Source of the DNA: Deltaproteobacteria bacterium
GTDB taxonomy: Bacteria; Desulfobacterota; GWC2-55-46
NCBI GenBank assembly: GCA_016177845.1
Contig: JACOUO010000003.1
Location: 248,001-312,000, forward strand
DNA: 64,000 bases
Reading direction: 5' to 3'
The translations under genes were made by a program, and so were the position numbers. The notes under the pieces are model-generated. The model was given only the letters and a program-made list of their open reading frames with translations. It had not been told where the DNA came from and searched no databases. Below are positions 58,433 through 64,000 of this stretch, in pieces (position 1 is the first letter of the stretch; every line of letters starts with the position of its first letter).

Positions 58433-58508
58433 GGGGGGTTAGCTCAGATGGGAGAGCGGCTGGTTCGCAATCAGCAGGCCACCGGTTCGATCCCGGTACC
58501 CTCCACCA
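58433..58508 (+). tRNA. tRNA-Ala (anticodon CGC)
   Basis: 76 nt with encoded CCA. Acceptor GGGGGGT pairs with ACCCTCC and includes the G3:U70 pair that identifies alanine tRNA. D arm GCTC/GAGC, anticodon stem GCTGG/TCAGC with loop TTCGCAA, T arm ACCGG/CCGGT with TTCGATC. It is the attachment site of the element: its last 45 bases are part of the 55-bp direct repeat. The 5' end is native, so this copy is intact. Confidence 0.95.
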
Positions 58509-58518
58509 GAAAAATCAA
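58464..58518. repeat. attL core repeat
   Basis: 55 bp: the 3' 45 bases of tRNA-Ala from the anticodon loop plus GAAAAATCAA. Exact copy at 63697-63751. Confidence 0.93.
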
Positions 58519-58548
58519 AGGGTTACGGCGTCAGTCGTAGCCCTTTTT
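58517..58548 (+). terminator. element-borne terminator behind tRNA-Ala
   Basis: AAAGGGTTACG / CGTAGCCCTTT stem (11 bp, one G-T pair), 8-base loop, then TTTTT. It stands in for the native terminator that was displaced to 63752. On the minus strand it can end the integrase transcript. Confidence 0.7.
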
Positions 58549-59626
58549 CATTGGACTGTGCTAAAATTGTGCTAATCCTGTCCAAGATCTCGACTCCATC
58601 CCTCAAGCTTTCAGGATAATGGTGGGCATACCGCTGAGTCATCCTGATATCCTTGTGGCCCAAAAGCTTTCCAATCTTATAGAAGTCTATTCCAGCTTGA
58701 GCAAGGCGAGTAGCAAAGGTATGTCTGAGGTCGTGGAACCTGAAATCCTCAATCTTAGCTCGTTTTAAGGCCTTGTAGAAAGCCCTTAGAAGATTACAGG
58801 CTAATATCTTGTTCCCGGCCTCATTGATGAAGACATAATTATTATTTATGCTCCTAACCTTTGCTTTAGACTTCAGAAGCTCCAAAGCCCGCTGATTCAA
58901 GGGTATGGTTCTTTTCTCGCCGTTCTTAGACCGAACAACAGTAGCGGTTTTTCTGAACAGGTCAACATGAGGACATTCAAGGGATAGTATTTCATCTTGC
59001 CTCATACCAGTGTTGAGGGCGAAGATAACGACCTCTTGTAACCAATACCTTGGCTCAGTCTTGTTCTCTTCGATTGTAGGATAAAGAACGCAATTATCTA
59101 TAAGCGTCTTTTCCTCTTCGAAGGTGAGCCATCTATCCCTTGCGTTTCTTACCTTTTCAGGACTAACCCTATCAACAGGATTTTCCTTGACCCATTCCCA
59201 TTCCCGCATGGCGAGATTGAAAGCATGACGTAAAAGGCCTCTACGGGAATTTATTGAAGAAGCTGAAAGCCCTCTGTTCCTGCAAGTTGTTTTGTATTCA
59301 GAGATAAGGCGAGGAGTTATTTCTTTCAAAGGCGTATTACCGAAAAATTCCTCCATCTCCTTTACGATTATCCTGTCAGACCTAACCGTATTTGGTCGCT
59401 TGTTTGGGACAGAGTGTTCATTTATATACTTCTCCAATAACTCGCCAACGGTCTTTTCTTCGCCTTCAAGCTTTTCAAACCACTTGCCCTCCGTGATTTG
59501 AGTTAGAACCTTTGCATGGATCTTTTCCGCAAGCTTCTTATCAGTTGCCCCTGTGGATTGCCTTATCTGCTTGCCGTTATAGCTAAATCTCATCCACCAG
59601 ACCTGGTCTCTCTTAAAAAGTCCCAT
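58523..59626 (-). CDS. int: tyrosine recombinase (integrase)
   Basis: 367 aa. N-terminal arm-binding-like segment (1-55), core-binding domain (about 60-150), catalytic domain with Arg209 (NTGMRQDEILSL), His298-x-x-Arg301 (FHDLRHTFATRLA), His324 and the nucleophile Tyr333 (MTQRYAHH). Complete active site. The stop lies 5 bases from attL. Start ATG 59626 forms TAATG with the excisionase stop and has SD GGAGG. It catalyses insertion and excision at the 55-bp repeat in tRNA-Ala. Confidence 0.96.
   Translation of the reverse strand: MGLFKRDQVWWMRFSYNGKQIRQSTGATDKKLAEKIHAKVLTQITEGKWFEKLEGEEKTVGELLEKYINEHSVPNKRPNTVRSDRIIVKEMEEFFGNTPLKEITPRLISEYKTTCRNRGLSASSINSRRGLLRHAFNLAMREWEWVKENPVDRVSPEKVRNARDRWLTFEEEKTLIDNCVLYPTIEENKTEPRYWLQEVVIFALNTGMRQDEILSLECPHVDLFRKTATVVRSKNGEKRTIPLNQRALELLKSKAKVRSINNNYVFINEAGNKILACNLLRAFYKALKRAKIEDFRFHDLRHTFATRLAQAGIDFYKIGKLLGHKDIRMTQRYAHHYPESLRDGVEILDRISTILAQSNEKGLRLTP
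58555..58575. repeat. arm-type repeat near attL
   Basis: Contains two TGTGCTAA units (TGTGCTAAAATTGTGCTAA); 21 bp (with AC before it) identical to 63547-63567. It lies inside the last codons of the integrase gene. Confidence 0.7.
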
Positions 59627-59835
59627 TAATCCTCCTTCCTGAGACCTTGACTTAGGCTGGTTTCCCGTTTGGATGGATTATACCTCTTGCCCTTTGCCTG
59701 TTCAATAGCTCTCTTGACTATCAGATGCCCGTTAAGCTTGTAAAAAGGAATAGTGTCGTAATGCACCCATGAATAAAGGGTAGATTCTTTTACTTTTAAG
59801 AAGTCAGAAAGTTCTTTTATGGTAATCAGCTTCAT
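59626..59835 (-). CDS. xis: excisionase-like helix-turn-helix protein
   Basis: 69 aa. MerR/excisionase-type winged helix: ITIKELSDFLKVKESTLYSWVHYDTIPFYKLNGHLIV, basic C-terminus. Position directly before int, overlapping starts and stops on both sides (ATGA with Rep, TAATG with int), fits a recombination directionality factor. It may also repress the element's promoter. Confidence 0.85.
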   Translation of the reverse strand: MKLITIKELSDFLKVKESTLYSWVHYDTIPFYKLNGHLIVKRAIEQAKGKRYNPSKRETSLSQGLRKED

Positions 59836-60965
59836 ATATCTTTTTCTTGCTCTAATGGCTTATTGTATTTTTTCTTTTTAGAATTGATCTTGGTCACTAA
59901 ATAATCATTCTCGTCCTGATAATAAGACGAGTTCTCAGTATGTTTTTTTAGAAATTCTTTGGCATCTCTGCAAAATTCAAGTACGACAGTATCATTTATA
60001 GAATCATAGCCTTTGAGTGCAGCGTAATTTGTCAGATAGCCCATGCCATTTAAAAATAAAGTGCTGACGATAGGAACTCTCGACCTGCTAATATCTCTGA
60101 TTATTCCTGTATAGTTACCATCACCGAACTTGACCTGTTCTATTTCAGCCCAAAGGGGATGGGTTTGCCACCTTGTACGATTTTTGGTTTTTTCTTCATA
60201 AGCAAGTCTTAACCATTTTTGAGTGCAATACAGCCATATGTCATTACTGCATTCACCTAATTCAAAAGCCTTGTTGATTGATAACTGCTTAAGGACTTCT
60301 CTTTTTAGCTGAAACTCAAGTCTCCAAACATTCAGGGTTTTATCCCATCCGTTTTTGCTCCAAAAGGCCATGAGGTAGTCTTTTTTGCTTTTTTCAATTT
60401 CGATGGTCTTGTTATAAAGCCTCGCTGATATATCACCACCGAGACCGATTGAGAAACCTGTAAATCTGTCCCCGCTCCAATGATTATTGAATCCCTTACT
60501 CCTTGTGATCCAAGATTTCTTATTTATAGCCGATAAATCAGTCTCAGTAATAAAATCTACAAAAAAATCTGCCCTGCTTACTGTTTCTTCTTCAATCCCG
60601 TCTAAAAGTTCCTTCATAGTTCCTCTTAGTTGATTCATAGCTATAGAAACCCCGAAGCAGTTCAAGAGATCGCTTGATAGCTGAACGTATATAGTAGGAA
60701 GCATTTTCTTTTTGCTTGCTGATATCTGAATATGATACCAACTGTCAACAAGAACATAGGCATATCTTCCTTTGCCCCTGTCCTTGACCTCAAATGTATG
60801 CTCATCAATGGTGATTGTAGCCAGAGCCTGCACTTTTTCATCATCTGATTGAGCAAACAATTTCTTTTGTTCCAGCTCCTCTTTGAACCTTTCATTTAAT
60901 GTCCCTTTGAAGGATAAATAGAGGCTATCTATGCCTTTGTGAACTTTTTTAAATATTTCAGTCAC
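59832..60965 (-). CDS. Rep_trans-like replication initiator / MOBT-type relaxase
   Basis: 377 aa. Motifs in the order of the PF02486 group (pT181 Rep, ICEBs1 NicK): SRADFFVDF (130-138), ARLYNKTIEI (181-190), WRLEFQLKRE (214-223). NicK-type proteins nick oriT and also start rolling-circle copying; plasmid relatives only replicate. GTG 60965 start with GGAG 9 bases upstream. The C-terminus is Lys-rich. The 336-base GC-rich stretch upstream with nested hairpins is a natural target. I cannot decide between initiator and relaxase from sequence alone. Confidence 0.75.
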   Translation of the reverse strand: MTEIFKKVHKGIDSLYLSFKGTLNERFKEELEQKKLFAQSDDEKVQALATITIDEHTFEVKDRGKGRYAYVLVDSWYHIQISASKKKMLPTIYVQLSSDLLNCFGVSIAMNQLRGTMKELLDGIEEETVSRADFFVDFITETDLSAINKKSWITRSKGFNNHWSGDRFTGFSIGLGGDISARLYNKTIEIEKSKKDYLMAFWSKNGWDKTLNVWRLEFQLKREVLKQLSINKAFELGECSNDIWLYCTQKWLRLAYEEKTKNRTRWQTHPLWAEIEQVKFGDGNYTGIIRDISRSRVPIVSTLFLNGMGYLTNYAALKGYDSINDTVVLEFCRDAKEFLKKHTENSSYYQDENDYLVTKINSKKKKYNKPLEQEKDI

Positions 60966-61104
60966 TTACGATTTCTCCATGTAATTTGAGGGTGCTGTGT
61001 TACTAAGCGGCGCACCCTGGTTGATTTTACGCCTACGCTTCTGGCCTTATTCTCAGCTTTTGTGCTCTGCCAGCTCTTTTTAAAGACGGTTTCGCTTCGC
61101 TTAC

Positions 61105-61294
61105 ACCAAGGGGCGAAGCCCCTTGGTTATCCCCCGTTCGCTTCTGCCGACCTCGTGCCAATGCGCAACGGGAAAGCTCCTTAGCCCTGATTAGCGTTAG
61201 TGGCCGTTGCTGGTTGATAAGGGAAAATACCTTGTTGCCCTCAAACTGCCAATGTGCGCCCGCCCCGCAGTAGCGGGGCAGAACCCCCATTGGC
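61105..61294. other. candidate replication/transfer origin with nested hairpins
   Basis: GC-rich island in an AT-rich element. Perfect 10-3-10 palindrome ACCAAGGGGC-GAA-GCCCCTTGGT (61105-61127). Further on, GCCAATG/CATTGGC (61248-61254, 61288-61294) encloses GCCCCGC-AGTA-GCGGGGC (61262-61279). GCCAATGCGC also occurs near 61153. The layout resembles a double-strand origin or oriT. It contains no convincing gene. Confidence 0.5.
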
Positions 61295-61301
61295 GTAGCT
61301 C

Positions 61302-61556
61302 TTAGCCAGCGACTTTGTCTTGTGGCACTATAGACAGATAGAGTTTTCTATTTCGCTCTGAAATGCCTATTACAGTAAAGTTGACCACTTCGGTTTCCTT
61401 GTAGCTGTAGAATGTCTTTTTATCCAAGATCTGACCGATATACATATTTTTGTTGTTATCAGTATCTATAATGAAAAGCTCTGTTAGGAACTGGTTCCCA
61501 CGCTTGGTCTCAATTTCCCTTTTTTCACATCCGATTATTGTTGCCCTTATTTGCAT
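61302..61556 (-). CDS. small OB-fold-like protein, possible single-strand DNA-binding protein
   Basis: 84 aa. Alternating hydrophobic strands (MQIRATIIGCEKREI, QFLTELFIIDTD, VVNFTVIGISERNRKLYLSIVPQ), the pattern of a five-strand OB barrel. SD AAAGGAGG lies 8 bases before ATG 61556; the GTG at 61565 overlaps the SD. First gene of the element's replication unit, upstream of Rep. ssDNA binding would suit rolling-circle replication; function is inference. Confidence 0.6.
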   Translation of the reverse strand: MQIRATIIGCEKREIETKRGNQFLTELFIIDTDNNKNMYIGQILDKKTFYSYKETEVVNFTVIGISERNRKLYLSIVPQDKVAG

Positions 61557-61593
61557 TCCTATCACCTCCTTTCCGCTCTGGCCTGAAATAAAA

Positions 61594-61645
61594 AAAGCCA
61601 GAATCGCTTGTTATTGGAAAGTGCTTAACAAGCAATCCTGGCTTT
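61594..61645 (-). terminator. leader hairpin / attenuator upstream of the replication genes
   Basis: 20-base arms (61594-61613 and 61626-61645) with 18 matches and a 12-base loop. On the minus strand the stem ends in seven T, only about 30 bases before the SD of the OB-like gene. Transcription of the OB-rep-xis-int unit from upstream must cross it. Confidence 0.6.
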
Positions 61646-61768
61646 GGGATCGCGGGGAAAAAGTTAAATTAGCGGAGTCCCCTTTTGCTCCACTGCCTTC
61701 ATAATATAATTAAAGTTTACACATGTCTTATATCTAATTTTAGCTGACTACTCTTGATTTCTATCAAG

Positions 61769-62059
61769 TCATTTTTCGTCCTCGATTTTTTTCCAGATTT
61801 TTTTGCCTTCGCCTTTGATCATTATTTCAATATCAACTAATCGGTCAATGTGTTTTAGAAAAGAGCCATAAAAGGCCAGATTATTCCTCAACCCGAATTC
61901 TGATTTTTTAAGATTGGGAATAGCCCTATTAAGATCCCGAATATAGGCCCGTATGACATAACCCACATTCAAATCAGGATCGCCGTATTCGCTCAGGGCT
62001 TTTCTGAGCTTTTCGAATTCCTCTTCATCGAGGCGCAGTGAGTAAGTCTTAAGTCCCAT
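61769..62059 (-). CDS. ribbon-helix-helix regulator
   Basis: 96 aa. N-terminal KTYSLRLDEEEFEKLRKALSEYG matches an Arc/CopG beta strand and helix; a longer C-terminal helical region (50-96) is Lys- and Glu-rich. Likely dimeric DNA-binding repressor or copy-control protein of the element, or a relaxosome accessory factor. No SD is visible before ATG 62059; a TTGACA at 62094-62099 (minus strand) suggests a nearby start of transcription and a nearly leaderless mRNA. Confidence 0.65.
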   Translation of the reverse strand: MGLKTYSLRLDEEEFEKLRKALSEYGDPDLNVGYVIRAYIRDLNRAIPNLKKSEFGLRNNLAFYGSFLKHIDRLVDIEIMIKGEGKKIWKKIEDEK

Positions 62060-62228
62060 GCTAGTAATTATTCTTATTACAAAAGAAATAATATGTCAAG
62101 AAAGAACTTTGAGTACCTACAAATAGATTTGTTATCCATCAACTTATATTATCTTATTAGTAGATCGAATTTGGCATTCTCTGCGGGAGGAGCATAAAAG
62201 CAGTTCAACTTAGAATAAAGTTCCAAAA

Positions 62229-63419
62229 TCATTTTCTCTTCTTCGGAGTTTTAGGGGGTTCTTTTTTACATTTATCAGAAGATGTTGGCTCTTCGTAAAA
62301 CCAGAAGAAGCCATTGTTATGAGCCTTTTGGCATGTATCGATTTCGTCCAATAATGTAGAATGTTTCAGCTTATCAGCATTTGACTCCATTAAGCTAATA
62401 TCATTTTCTATATCTTCTCTTGTAACTTCGCGATTTGTGCAGGCTACAGTAGGATAAGTAAGTATTATTTTATCTTTTATTATATATGTATTTTTACAAG
62501 TATTTTGAGCAGCCTTATTGCAGGCTGGTTTCCATTTTTCATAATCACTATAGTATTCATTAACTCGCCAGTTTTCAGGGAATCGAGATTTAAGATCAAG
62601 CAAGCGCTTGATACGCTGTTCAGAAGGTTTTTCATTAATACATATTTTTTCGAACGATTCTCGAAAAGGTAAAATGGAACCATGAAAGTCTTTTATGAAA
62701 TAAGGATCCATTTCAGAATCGTTTTTTTTAATAGAGAGTGGAGAAAAAGGAGATGATGTTGTTATAGTTATAAGTCTGCAAAATTGGTACATATCATTAA
62801 AAAAAACAGTTGCTCCTTTAATATCGGCTGTGTTTATTAAGTCCGGGTCGGCTTCAGAGACATCTATTTTTTTTAATTCTATGTCTTTATTTAATTCATA
62901 ATAGTACATATCACCATTTTCTGAGCCATAGTTTGAGCATATCTTTTTAAAATCATTACAGATTTTTGAGCTAGAAAAAGTTTTTTGATTAAAACAGTCG
63001 AGCGAATTAGAATAAAGAGAAATAGTTTTGTCAAAAATATCTTTTATTTGCTGTTCAGAGGCTGTTTCAATGTTAAAATTTTGAAAATGATAAGAAGGAA
63101 TAAGTATATAAATACCAAATTTCTCATATAGGGAATTTATCAGGGATTCGTATTTTTCCCTATACTCATTAGCACGTTTTCCATTTTTGATATTTTTTGC
63201 TATTAGTTGATCTAATTTAGAAGCTTCTTGCATCAATTTTACAATTTCAGCAGTAACCTTTTTTGTATTTTTTAGTTCCAAAATAACTTCTTGGTGATAA
63301 TCCTTATATTTAGGCAATAAGTCATTATAGAGCTGATTCTCGCTCTCAGTTGCATACGCAGCTACATAAAAAAACATTAAAAAAAATCCAGAAGCCAAGA
63401 TAGTTAGCAAGTTTTTCAT
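62229..63419 (-). CDS. secreted Cys-rich protein of unknown function (element cargo)
   Basis: 396 aa. Signal peptide MKNLLTILASGFFLMFFYVAAYA with cleavage after AYA and no lipobox, so soluble periplasmic or secreted. The mature part is mostly alpha-helical, with a coiled-coil-prone stretch at about 30-100 and ten cysteines (e.g. DCFN, FCRL, PACNK, DTCQK) that could form disulfides. Lys- and Pro-rich tail. SD GGGAGG fixes ATG 63419 over the frame start at 63473. Much more AT-rich than the chromosome. No known family recognised; candidate cargo. Confidence 0.75.
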   Translation of the reverse strand: MKNLLTILASGFFLMFFYVAAYATESENQLYNDLLPKYKDYHQEVILELKNTKKVTAEIVKLMQEASKLDQLIAKNIKNGKRANEYREKYESLINSLYEKFGIYILIPSYHFQNFNIETASEQQIKDIFDKTISLYSNSLDCFNQKTFSSSKICNDFKKICSNYGSENGDMYYYELNKDIELKKIDVSEADPDLINTADIKGATVFFNDMYQFCRLITITTSSPFSPLSIKKNDSEMDPYFIKDFHGSILPFRESFEKICINEKPSEQRIKRLLDLKSRFPENWRVNEYYSDYEKWKPACNKAAQNTCKNTYIIKDKIILTYPTVACTNREVTREDIENDISLMESNADKLKHSTLLDEIDTCQKAHNNGFFWFYEEPTSSDKCKKEPPKTPKKRK

Positions 63420-63546
63420 TGTACCTCCCAAAAAGATTGACTGTAATGGATTAATAATAGTCAAGATATTCATGTAAGACTATCATTTTTTAATAGTGTT
63501 TGCGAATTTTTTATATGGGAAATTTAATAGGGGTTCACCCAAAGTT

Positions 63547-63567
63547 ACTGTGCTAAAATTGTGCTAA
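63547..63567. repeat. arm-type repeat near attR
   Basis: Identical 21-bp copy of 58555-58575 (tandem TGTGCTAA units), 130 bases inside attR, followed by a TTTTGCC/GGCAAAA hairpin (63569-63588). Confidence 0.7.
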
Positions 63568-63696
63568 ATTTTGCCAAAACAGGCAAAAAATCAGAAAACA
63601 GACAATTTCTTTAACAGGTTCTAACTGCTTGATTTTTAAAGCAAAACGGGAAAACCAGCCATAAATCAAGGAGTTGTGTTTTTGGGCTTTTTGCCC

Positions 63697-63751
63697 TTCG
63701 CAATCAGCAGGCCACCGGTTCGATCCCGGTACCCTCCACCAGAAAAATCAA
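63697..63751. repeat. attR core repeat
   Basis: Exact 55-bp copy of 58464-58518. It carries only the 3' part of tRNA-Ala and is not a functional tRNA gene. Confidence 0.93.
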
Positions 63752-63783
63752 CCCCCCTGCGGTGAAACCGCAGGGGGGTTTTT
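63752..63783 (+). terminator. native tRNA-Ala terminator displaced by the element
   Basis: Perfect 12-bp stem CCCCCCTGCGGT / ACCGCAGGGGGG with a GAA loop, followed by TTTTT. It begins directly after the attR core, i.e. directly after the tRNA in the empty site. Confidence 0.85.
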
Positions 63784-63785
63784 GG

Positions 63786-63824
63786 TTGACCGCGATTGTT
63801 TTTTCGTATATATTCAGGATATAC
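63786..63824 (+). promoter_or_regulatory. brnT-like promoter with inverted repeat
   Basis: -35 TTGACC (63786-63791), 17-base spacer, -10 TATATT (63809-63814). GTATAT-ATTCAGG-ATATAC (63806-63824) overlaps the -10, as an autoregulatory operator would. Confidence 0.6.
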
Positions 63825-63828
63825 AATT

Positions 63829-64000
63829 ATGAAAAAGCAAGAAGACATTTTTTCAAATGTAGAAGGCTTTGACTGGGATAAGGGCAATATCATAAAGAAT
63901 TGGGAAAGGCATAGTGTCGGCCATCTCGAATGCGAAGAAGCTTTTTTTAATGCACCGCTACTGGTATATGATGACGCAGCCCATTCCATAGCAGAAGATC
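63829..64000 (+). CDS. BrnT-family toxin (3' end outside window)
   Basis: First 57 residues visible. FDWDKGNIIKNWERHSVGHLECEEAFFN is the typical BrnT/DUF497 start (F-x-W-D...K-N-x-x-K/R-H, then E-A-F). BrnT is an RNase toxin normally followed by an antitoxin gene brnA, which would lie past the window. No SD stands out. It is the chromosomal neighbour of tRNA-Ala before the element came in. Confidence 0.8.
   Translation, partial: MKKQEDIFSNVEGFDWDKGNIIKNWERHSVGHLECEEAFFNAPLLVYDDAAHSIAED

Follow-up and report, generated by a model that had tools for sequence, protein, structure and literature searches.

The window analysed here, a stretch of 64,000 nucleotides from Deltaproteobacteria bacterium assembly GCA_016177845.1 (contig JACOUO010000003.1, positions 248,001 to 312,000 of the forward strand), carries near its right-hand end a 5,233-bp (~5.2 kb) element inserted at the 3' end of a tRNA-Ala(CGC) gene. 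We interpret this element as a small integrative and excisable rolling-circle replicon, a reading to which we assign a probability of roughly 0.8. It is a known kind of element that can now be better defined, namely a widespread mini-element with the order Rep_trans initiator (Rep), excisionase (Xis) and integrase (Int) and a recognisable hairpin origin, and the copy in the window is intact. The features that carry this interpretation are listed below (positions in the window).

58433–58508, plus strand: tRNA-Ala(CGC), the integration target, left intact (ARAGORN; Rfam RF00005, E = 6.7e-12).
58464–58518, plus strand: attL, the 55-bp repeat (tRNA 3' end and 10 nt), an exact direct repeat.
58523–59626, minus strand: tyrosine integrase of 367 aa (PF00589, E = 6e-39; phrog_1, E = 1e-79; catalytic motifs R-K-HxxR-H-Y present).
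59626–59835, minus strand: excisionase-like HTH_17 protein of 69 aa, of a family conserved after Rep.
59832–60965, minus strand: Rep, a divergent Rep_trans/MOBT-type rolling-circle initiator of 377 aa (motif residues, profile match to 4cij, fold).
60966–61301, minus strand: origin island, conserved as DNA in the related genome G005 and in a Rep-less tRNA-Leu element (z = -2.5).
60990–61017, minus strand: hairpin GGGTGC-N16-GCACCC whose loop contains AGTAAC, probably the double-strand origin (recurrence before Rep, covariation).
63697–63751, plus strand: attR, the other exact copy of the 55-bp repeat.

A preliminary description of this DNA had proposed that a compact element is integrated at the 3' end of a tRNA gene, and the tRNA-Ala(CGC) repeat, the integrase and the empty sites in relatives bear that proposal out. 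The exact 55-bp repeat was verified at both positions and corresponds to the final 45 nt of the tRNA gene and 10 nt past it; an excised circle would measure the same 5,233 bp. Each end also holds, further in, a 21-nt direct repeat without mismatches, ACTGTGCTAAAATTGTGCTAA (58555–58575 and 63547–63567), which is made of the unit GTGCTAA twice in tandem, the pattern expected of arm-type integrase sites. Searching the window for a 20-nt version of this repeat with up to three mismatches gave no further match, with 0.00 matches expected in shuffled sequences.

The state of the same site elsewhere was read from 20 genomes of the same family that have readable DNA after tRNA-Ala(CGC), mostly with the same epimerase gene on the left. 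As the preliminary description had suggested looking for, empty sites are the rule: in 19 of the 20, no relative of any element protein, Int and Rep included, follows the tRNA (within 5–7 kb of readable DNA for most and 2 kb in G013), and in the remaining genome, G009, the site is occupied by an integrase 84% identical to that of the window, at a contig end. Another of the relatives, G008, has the same GAAAAATCAA behind the tRNA as attL and attR have. In G019 the sequence after the tRNA resembles the left terminator of an element and could be the scar of an earlier insertion. Most empty sites have a terminator-like hairpin directly 3' of the tRNA, and we therefore read the terminator to the right of attR as probably belonging to the tRNA itself and moved away from it when the element inserted. 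The remaining features of the ends are as follows.

58517–58548, plus strand: terminator-like hairpin directly 3' of the tRNA, presumably supplied by the element (direct reading of AAAGGGTTACGG..CGTAGCCCTTTTT; absent from the output of the terminator scan).
58555–58575, plus strand: arm-type direct repeat, left, with a 19-nt core found in related genomes too.
63543–63698, plus strand: right end, conserved across the element family, with the right arm-type repeat and the CTTGATTT..AAATCAAG inverted repeat, common to about a dozen places of the own genome and to loci of relatives.
63750–63780, plus strand: terminator right of the element, with a perfect 14-bp stem.

Read on the minus strand from the cargo side towards the tRNA, the element encodes a 414-aa orphan, a 96-aa protein resembling ribbon-helix-helix (RHH) regulators and an 87-aa protein, followed by the 336-bp intergenic island and then by Rep, Xis and Int. 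The three last genes overlap, xis sharing 1 nt with int and 4 nt with rep. The genes named in the preliminary description were all present, among them the integrase with a complete active site beside attL and the excisionase, for which an HTH_17/excisionase-like match was obtained, whereas two small genes, for the 87-aa and the 96-aa protein, had been overlooked. In agreement with that description, none of the open reading frames (ORFs) of the element was recognised as a phage structural gene or as part of a mating apparatus. The proteins beyond the rep-xis-int module are:

61302–61565, minus strand: OB-fold protein of 87 aa, probably binding single-stranded DNA (ssDNA) or assisting Rep (AlphaFold2 predicted local distance difference test, pLDDT, 81; VIA Z 9.8 to PriB).
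61769–62059, minus strand: RHH/CopG-like protein of 96 aa, a putative copy-number or origin-binding regulator, judged RHH from its sequence pattern (85% identical copy in a tRNA-Leu element).
62229–63473, minus strand: orphan cargo gene of 414 aa, AT-rich, with a likely start at 63419 and a signal-peptide-like N-terminus; no convincing family.

Profile, active-site motifs and fold also agree with the earlier suggestion of a Rep_trans/NicK-like protein. As a single sequence, Rep matches no Pfam family at E ≤ 1 and hence has no direct match to PF02486, which is a matter of hidden Markov model sensitivity, the residues and the fold being satisfied. A profile of 22 Rep members matches RepSTK1 (4cij) with E = 4.8e-5, and 7 of the 22 relatives match PF02486 (best E = 1.2e-4). 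Residues D13, D137, Y184, K186 and E217 are invariant across the 22 divergent homologues and, together with E189, in a 37-row set. They map one to one onto the Rep_trans/MOBT motifs N', I, III (Y184-x-K186-x-x-E189) and IV, with D13, D137 and E217 as the acidic metal ligands; these motifs, including YxKxxE as motif III, have been mapped by mutagenesis and crystallography (PMC6499999, PMC4797284). The AlphaFold2 model of Rep (pLDDT 92) has the RepSTK1/RepDE fold, its top three matches being 4cij, 4cwe and 4cwc (Z 14.2, 12.5 and 12.0), with the next entry at 6.8, and a Foldseek E of ~1e-10. Assignment to an HUH-type Rep was dropped, since motifs and fold are those of Rep_trans. Because profile, motifs and predicted fold concur, even though the single-sequence Pfam search gave nothing, we regard membership of the Rep_trans/MOBT superfamily as confirmed at the level of sequence and model.

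The origin-like island of the preliminary description is real. It contains a hairpin, separated from rep by 24 bp on the upstream side, in which a stem of six pairs encloses a loop of 16 nt with AGTAAC. Hairpins of this form also precede rep in many Pseudomonadota, in G005 and in the anammox Planctomycetota (Brocadia, Scalindua). When hairpins with GTA[AT]C, CTAAC, CTAAT or GTAAT in the loop were searched for near the Rep N-terminus, they were found in 56 of 98 Rep loci, compared with 20 of 2,265 control windows (0.9%). The hairpin occupies the same place in 43/43 testable loci of the 44-row Rep clade that includes the window, some of them counted with a shorter stem or a variant loop (the 44th, L158, has too little upstream DNA). 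In 27 distinct hairpins selected for the 28-nt form, a choice that favours the pairing percentage, 99.4% of cells are paired and double changes occur in 4 of the 6 pairs; none of 500 shuffles reached this score, and no slide came near it. CTAAC stands at the same place in five loci (L049, L164, L168, L194 and L211), and the free 1.7-kb plasmid pTHEBA.01 has the same kind of hairpin before its related Rep. In the Rep_trans/MOBT class, the nick site or double-strand origin is CT'AA in the loop of a GC-rich hairpin (PMC9371924), compared with AGTAAC in the loop found here. Judged by its position, recurrence and covariation, the hairpin at 60990–61017 is very probably the rolling-circle (double-strand) origin.

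The 87-aa protein would fit the same process. Its AlphaFold2 model, made from two sequences, is an OB fold with PriB/SSB as nearest structures (Z 9.8, root-mean-square deviation 2.2, 77 residues), and the protein recurs beside Rep in a decayed element of G017 (70% identical) and, in part only, at a contig end in G005. A role as Rep auxiliary or in strand binding is plausible by analogy, because the MOBT relaxase of ICESt3 uses OB-fold helpers and the filamentous phage Zuza27 has an ssDNA-binding protein beside Rep. For the 414-aa cargo protein, no convincing match was found in Pfam, NCBIfam, PADLOC, plasmids or the PDB, nor relatives in the loci and plasmids searched; matches to phrog_2767 (E = 3e-4, 83 residues) and Colicin-E1 (E = 0.19) were judged not meaningful.

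The preliminary description had considered a new family in this lineage. The element does belong to a family, but one that is not confined to the lineage, as the Rep-Xis-Int arrangement, together with the adjoining tRNA, recurs in several phyla. A first scan of genome contigs with the Rep sequence alone gave no match, whereas a search of GTDB genomes with the Rep alignment succeeded and recognised 116 relatives, of which the best 80 were kept. Viral contigs gave no match with the Rep protein or the 20-nt arm motif; with the Rep alignment they gave five loci, none with detectable Zot. A same-strand tyrosine integrase lies downstream of Rep in 53 of the 67 loci with enough downstream DNA, the Xis family is present in 44 loci, and 35 loci abut a tRNA, of 12 isotypes. 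In a quick Rep tree made without bootstrap, in which deep forks are weak, the window groups with G005 (SH-like approximate likelihood-ratio test, SH-aLRT, 96), then with the anammox elements (99), inside the 44-row clade (98). The G005 element has the order SSB-Rep-Xis-Int in tRNA-Pro, and its right end, marked by an exact 45-bp repeat, is on another contig, where a type III restriction-modification-like locus adjoins it. The same Rep family occurs in integrated filamentous phages (with Zot) in other genomes of the phylum (L050–L053, L055), some of which have a tyrosine integrase beside Rep and an adjoining tRNA. Upstream of Rep in a tRNA-Phe element of a Lysobacteraceae genome (L167, 3811–4926) lies a retron type VI-like reverse transcriptase.

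When the own genome was searched with the DNA of the element, partial copies turned up in large number. Up to 150 bp of the right end, with the arm repeat and the inverted repeat, recur at about a dozen places, where they adjoin the remnants of various tRNAs (Ala(CGC), Leu, Ala(GGC), Glu and others). The related integrations with this right end number about ten, and several of them hold defence genes. At tRNA-Leu (L096 5425–12520, contig C18) there are two tandem units, one att copy being exact over 62 bp and another, of 63 bp, 97% identical; at tRNA-Ala(GGC) (L099 5408–19001 and L100, C16) there is a tandem array with four further att copies; and the tRNA-Glu element is split, with its left end on C10 and its right end on C3. 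Cargo in the family includes AbiGi with a RES-domain protein, and an AbiLi-like AAA protein with a weakly DUF4276-like protein. Repeats around unrelated DNA in units that lack an integrase, which the preliminary description had named as speaking against an element of this kind, do occur in the second tRNA-Leu unit and within the tRNA-Ala(GGC) array. We read these units as non-autonomous family members and not as a refutation, because they have the same right-end sequence and stand in tandem with integrase-bearing or degraded units.

Exactly two origin hairpins are present in the own genome, one in the window and one in the tRNA-Leu element (C18:762858–762885). In the first tRNA-Leu unit, Int and the right end are present, and of Xis the last 20 residues are left. 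RES and AbiGi are encoded there too, as is an RHH-like protein 85% identical to that of the window; there is neither a Rep nor an OB-fold gene. The origin island of this unit is 73% identical to that of the window over 265 bp, the hairpin itself at 27/28 positions. The unit has lost rep and kept its hairpin, a state that fits replication in trans by the Rep of the window. A bolder and rather doubtful extension would make the window element the Rep-encoding master of a genome-resident family, with its Rep replicating in trans a Rep-less sibling left with only the hairpin, an integrase and the common right end. A single machinery for replication and integration would then move phage-defence cassettes (AbiGi, RES, possibly further cargo) between tRNA genes.

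Several side observations concern these sibling loci. The tRNA-Ala(GGC) array contains repeated cargo pairs, by eye a peptidase-like and a secreted beta-propeller-like protein, with similar ones at C24 and in unit 2 of C18. Beside a right end on C20 (L098 4155–5967), genes for QueC, OGG-like and TIR proteins resemble a set like that of type IV cyclic oligonucleotide-based antiphage signalling systems (CBASS), and a UG19 reverse transcriptase and AbiGi lie beside the tRNA-Glu right end on C3 (L101 1974–4896), where a near-exact 175-bp tandem duplication also spans an att remnant (L101 6582–6931). At tRNA-Arg (L103 84–923, C23) a very different Rep_trans-like protein of 280 aa has the same motif order (YDKLKE), with Xis and an N-terminally truncated Int. 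Two stretches, L102 1–159 and L103 1140–1250, match the start of int and the end of xis within window positions 59475–59726 at 99–100% identity, with the remaining Int at 50–75%; this may reflect an exchange of modules or, close to the ends of contigs, an artefact of assembly.

In the replicon that we propose, the overlapping rep-xis-int genes would switch on excision and replication together. After excision, Tyr184 of Rep would nick the hairpin loop at 60990–61017, probably at AGT'AAC, and start rolling-circle replication. Two small proteins would contribute, the OB-fold protein by binding the displaced strand or aiding Rep and the RHH-like protein by regulating copy number. The Rep-less tRNA-Leu relative, with its origin hairpin, could be replicated in trans, and the element is one of the own-genome family with a common right end and integrase. 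Several points weigh against this picture. No free circular copy or attP junction was found in the draft assembly, no VirB4 (PF03135) in the own genome and no Zot (PF05707) in 30 genomes of the host family. Xis is identified by an HTH_17 match only, the cargo has no recognised function, and the exact nick position is one that we infer. The tRNA-Leu element may also have lost rep recently with no action in trans, its hairpin perhaps simply not yet decayed.

The route between cells would be that of an integrative mobilisable element (IME) if Rep served as a MOBT-like relaxase too, the hairpin as oriT too and the OB-fold protein as a relaxosome auxiliary, like OrfL/OrfM of ICESt3, with a conjugative helper exporting the DNA. 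We consider this a real possibility, though the minor one. The Rep motifs, the hairpin and the OB-fold protein are all present in the element; Rep_trans/MOBT proteins of Tn916 and ICEBs1 act in both transfer and replication, Rep_trans is found in some streptococcal IMEs (PMC5704250), and ICESt3 requires OB-fold auxiliaries (PMC12614216). However, the own genome is without VirB4, no coupling protein or oriT accessory gene was recognised in the element, and the Rep family also occurs in 1.7-kb plasmids typed as non-mobilisable.

Loss of mobility would leave an immobile relic, formerly mobile and retained for its cargo, as several sibling copies in the own genome with decayed Int and the broken copy in G017 might suggest. 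This is improbable for the window element: its ORFs are all intact and its repeats exact, rep, xis and int keep their overlapping order, and the hairpin of its origin is perfect. Similarly improbable, in our view, is a reduced inovirus satellite that has kept Rep and an ssDNA-binding protein while a helper phage gives Zot and coat. It is true that Rep adjoins an ssDNA-binding protein in the Thermus phage Zuza27, that the Zot-bearing loci L050–L053 and L055 use this Rep family and that the best viral fold match is Inoviridae, but those Zot-bearing integrations form a separate Rep clade, 0/44 rows of the window's clade have detectable Zot, 0/30 genomes of the host family have it, and the OB-fold model resembles PriB/SSB. 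Direct inovirus descent was likewise set aside, the Zot-bearing integrations having their own Rep clade.

Among known systems, actinomycete integrative and conjugative elements (AICEs, e.g. pSAM2) likewise have a tyrosine integrase at a tRNA 3' end, Xis and Rep; they replicate autonomously after excision, follow the plan att-tra-rep-int-att and form tandem integrations (PMC3218068). In contrast, no FtsK/SpoIIIE-like TraB translocase was recognised among the ORFs of the present element, which has a divergent Rep_trans protein, a Gram-negative host and a size of 5.2 kb. Its anatomy is that of the AICE plan minus the tra gene, and its predicted biochemistry that of Rep_trans/MOBT. AICE membership is not claimed because TraB is absent, nor inovirus membership because Zot and coat are absent. 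With ICEBs1, Tn916 and ICESt3 (MOBT) and with streptococcal Rep_trans IMEs, the element shares the motifs D, D, YxKxxE and E and an OB-fold partner near the relaxase or Rep gene, and its hairpin loop may be of their T'AA type; it differs in that it lacks conjugation genes, shows no N-terminal helix-turn-helix in Rep, has AGTAAC and not CT'AA as the loop core and is not from Firmicutes. Like an IME, it has its own integration and excision module (Int, Xis-like protein, att sites, empty sites), and we do not claim mobilisation by a helper. The plasmids pTHEBA.01 (Mesotoga) and p11802_2 (Synechococcus) have a related Rep, and pTHEBA.01 a hairpin in the equivalent place, but they are free circles of 1.7–1.8 kb without an integrase. 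Inoviruses (Zuza27; L050–L053, L055) share a related Rep, beside an ssDNA-binding protein in Zuza27, and some integrate by a tRNA with a tyrosine integrase, whereas no pI/Zot or coat genes were recognised in the present element. Tycheposons are similar by resemblance only, as tRNA-bordered, tyrosine-recombinase-based cargo elements (PMC10872708); the element described here differs in its Rep_trans replication module with a hairpin origin.

The element gives widespread, tiny tRNA-integrated islands, with varied cargo including defence genes and no visible transfer genes, a defined replicon of initiator, hairpin origin and integrase. The origin signature is a simple pattern by which such elements, Rep-less ones too, can be found, and the Rep-origin pair is open to direct in vitro testing. 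Rolling-circle plasmids, filamentous phages and integrative islands are hereby grouped around one replication module outside Firmicutes.

Two minor observations concern the right-hand border. Rfam returned sub-threshold matches to tmRNA and a His leader in the window, on the tRNA remnant of attR and the terminator, which we take as spurious. Just right of attR, outside the element, begins an ORF that by eye resembles a BrnT toxin (window 63797–64000, continuing in L086 6797–7375).

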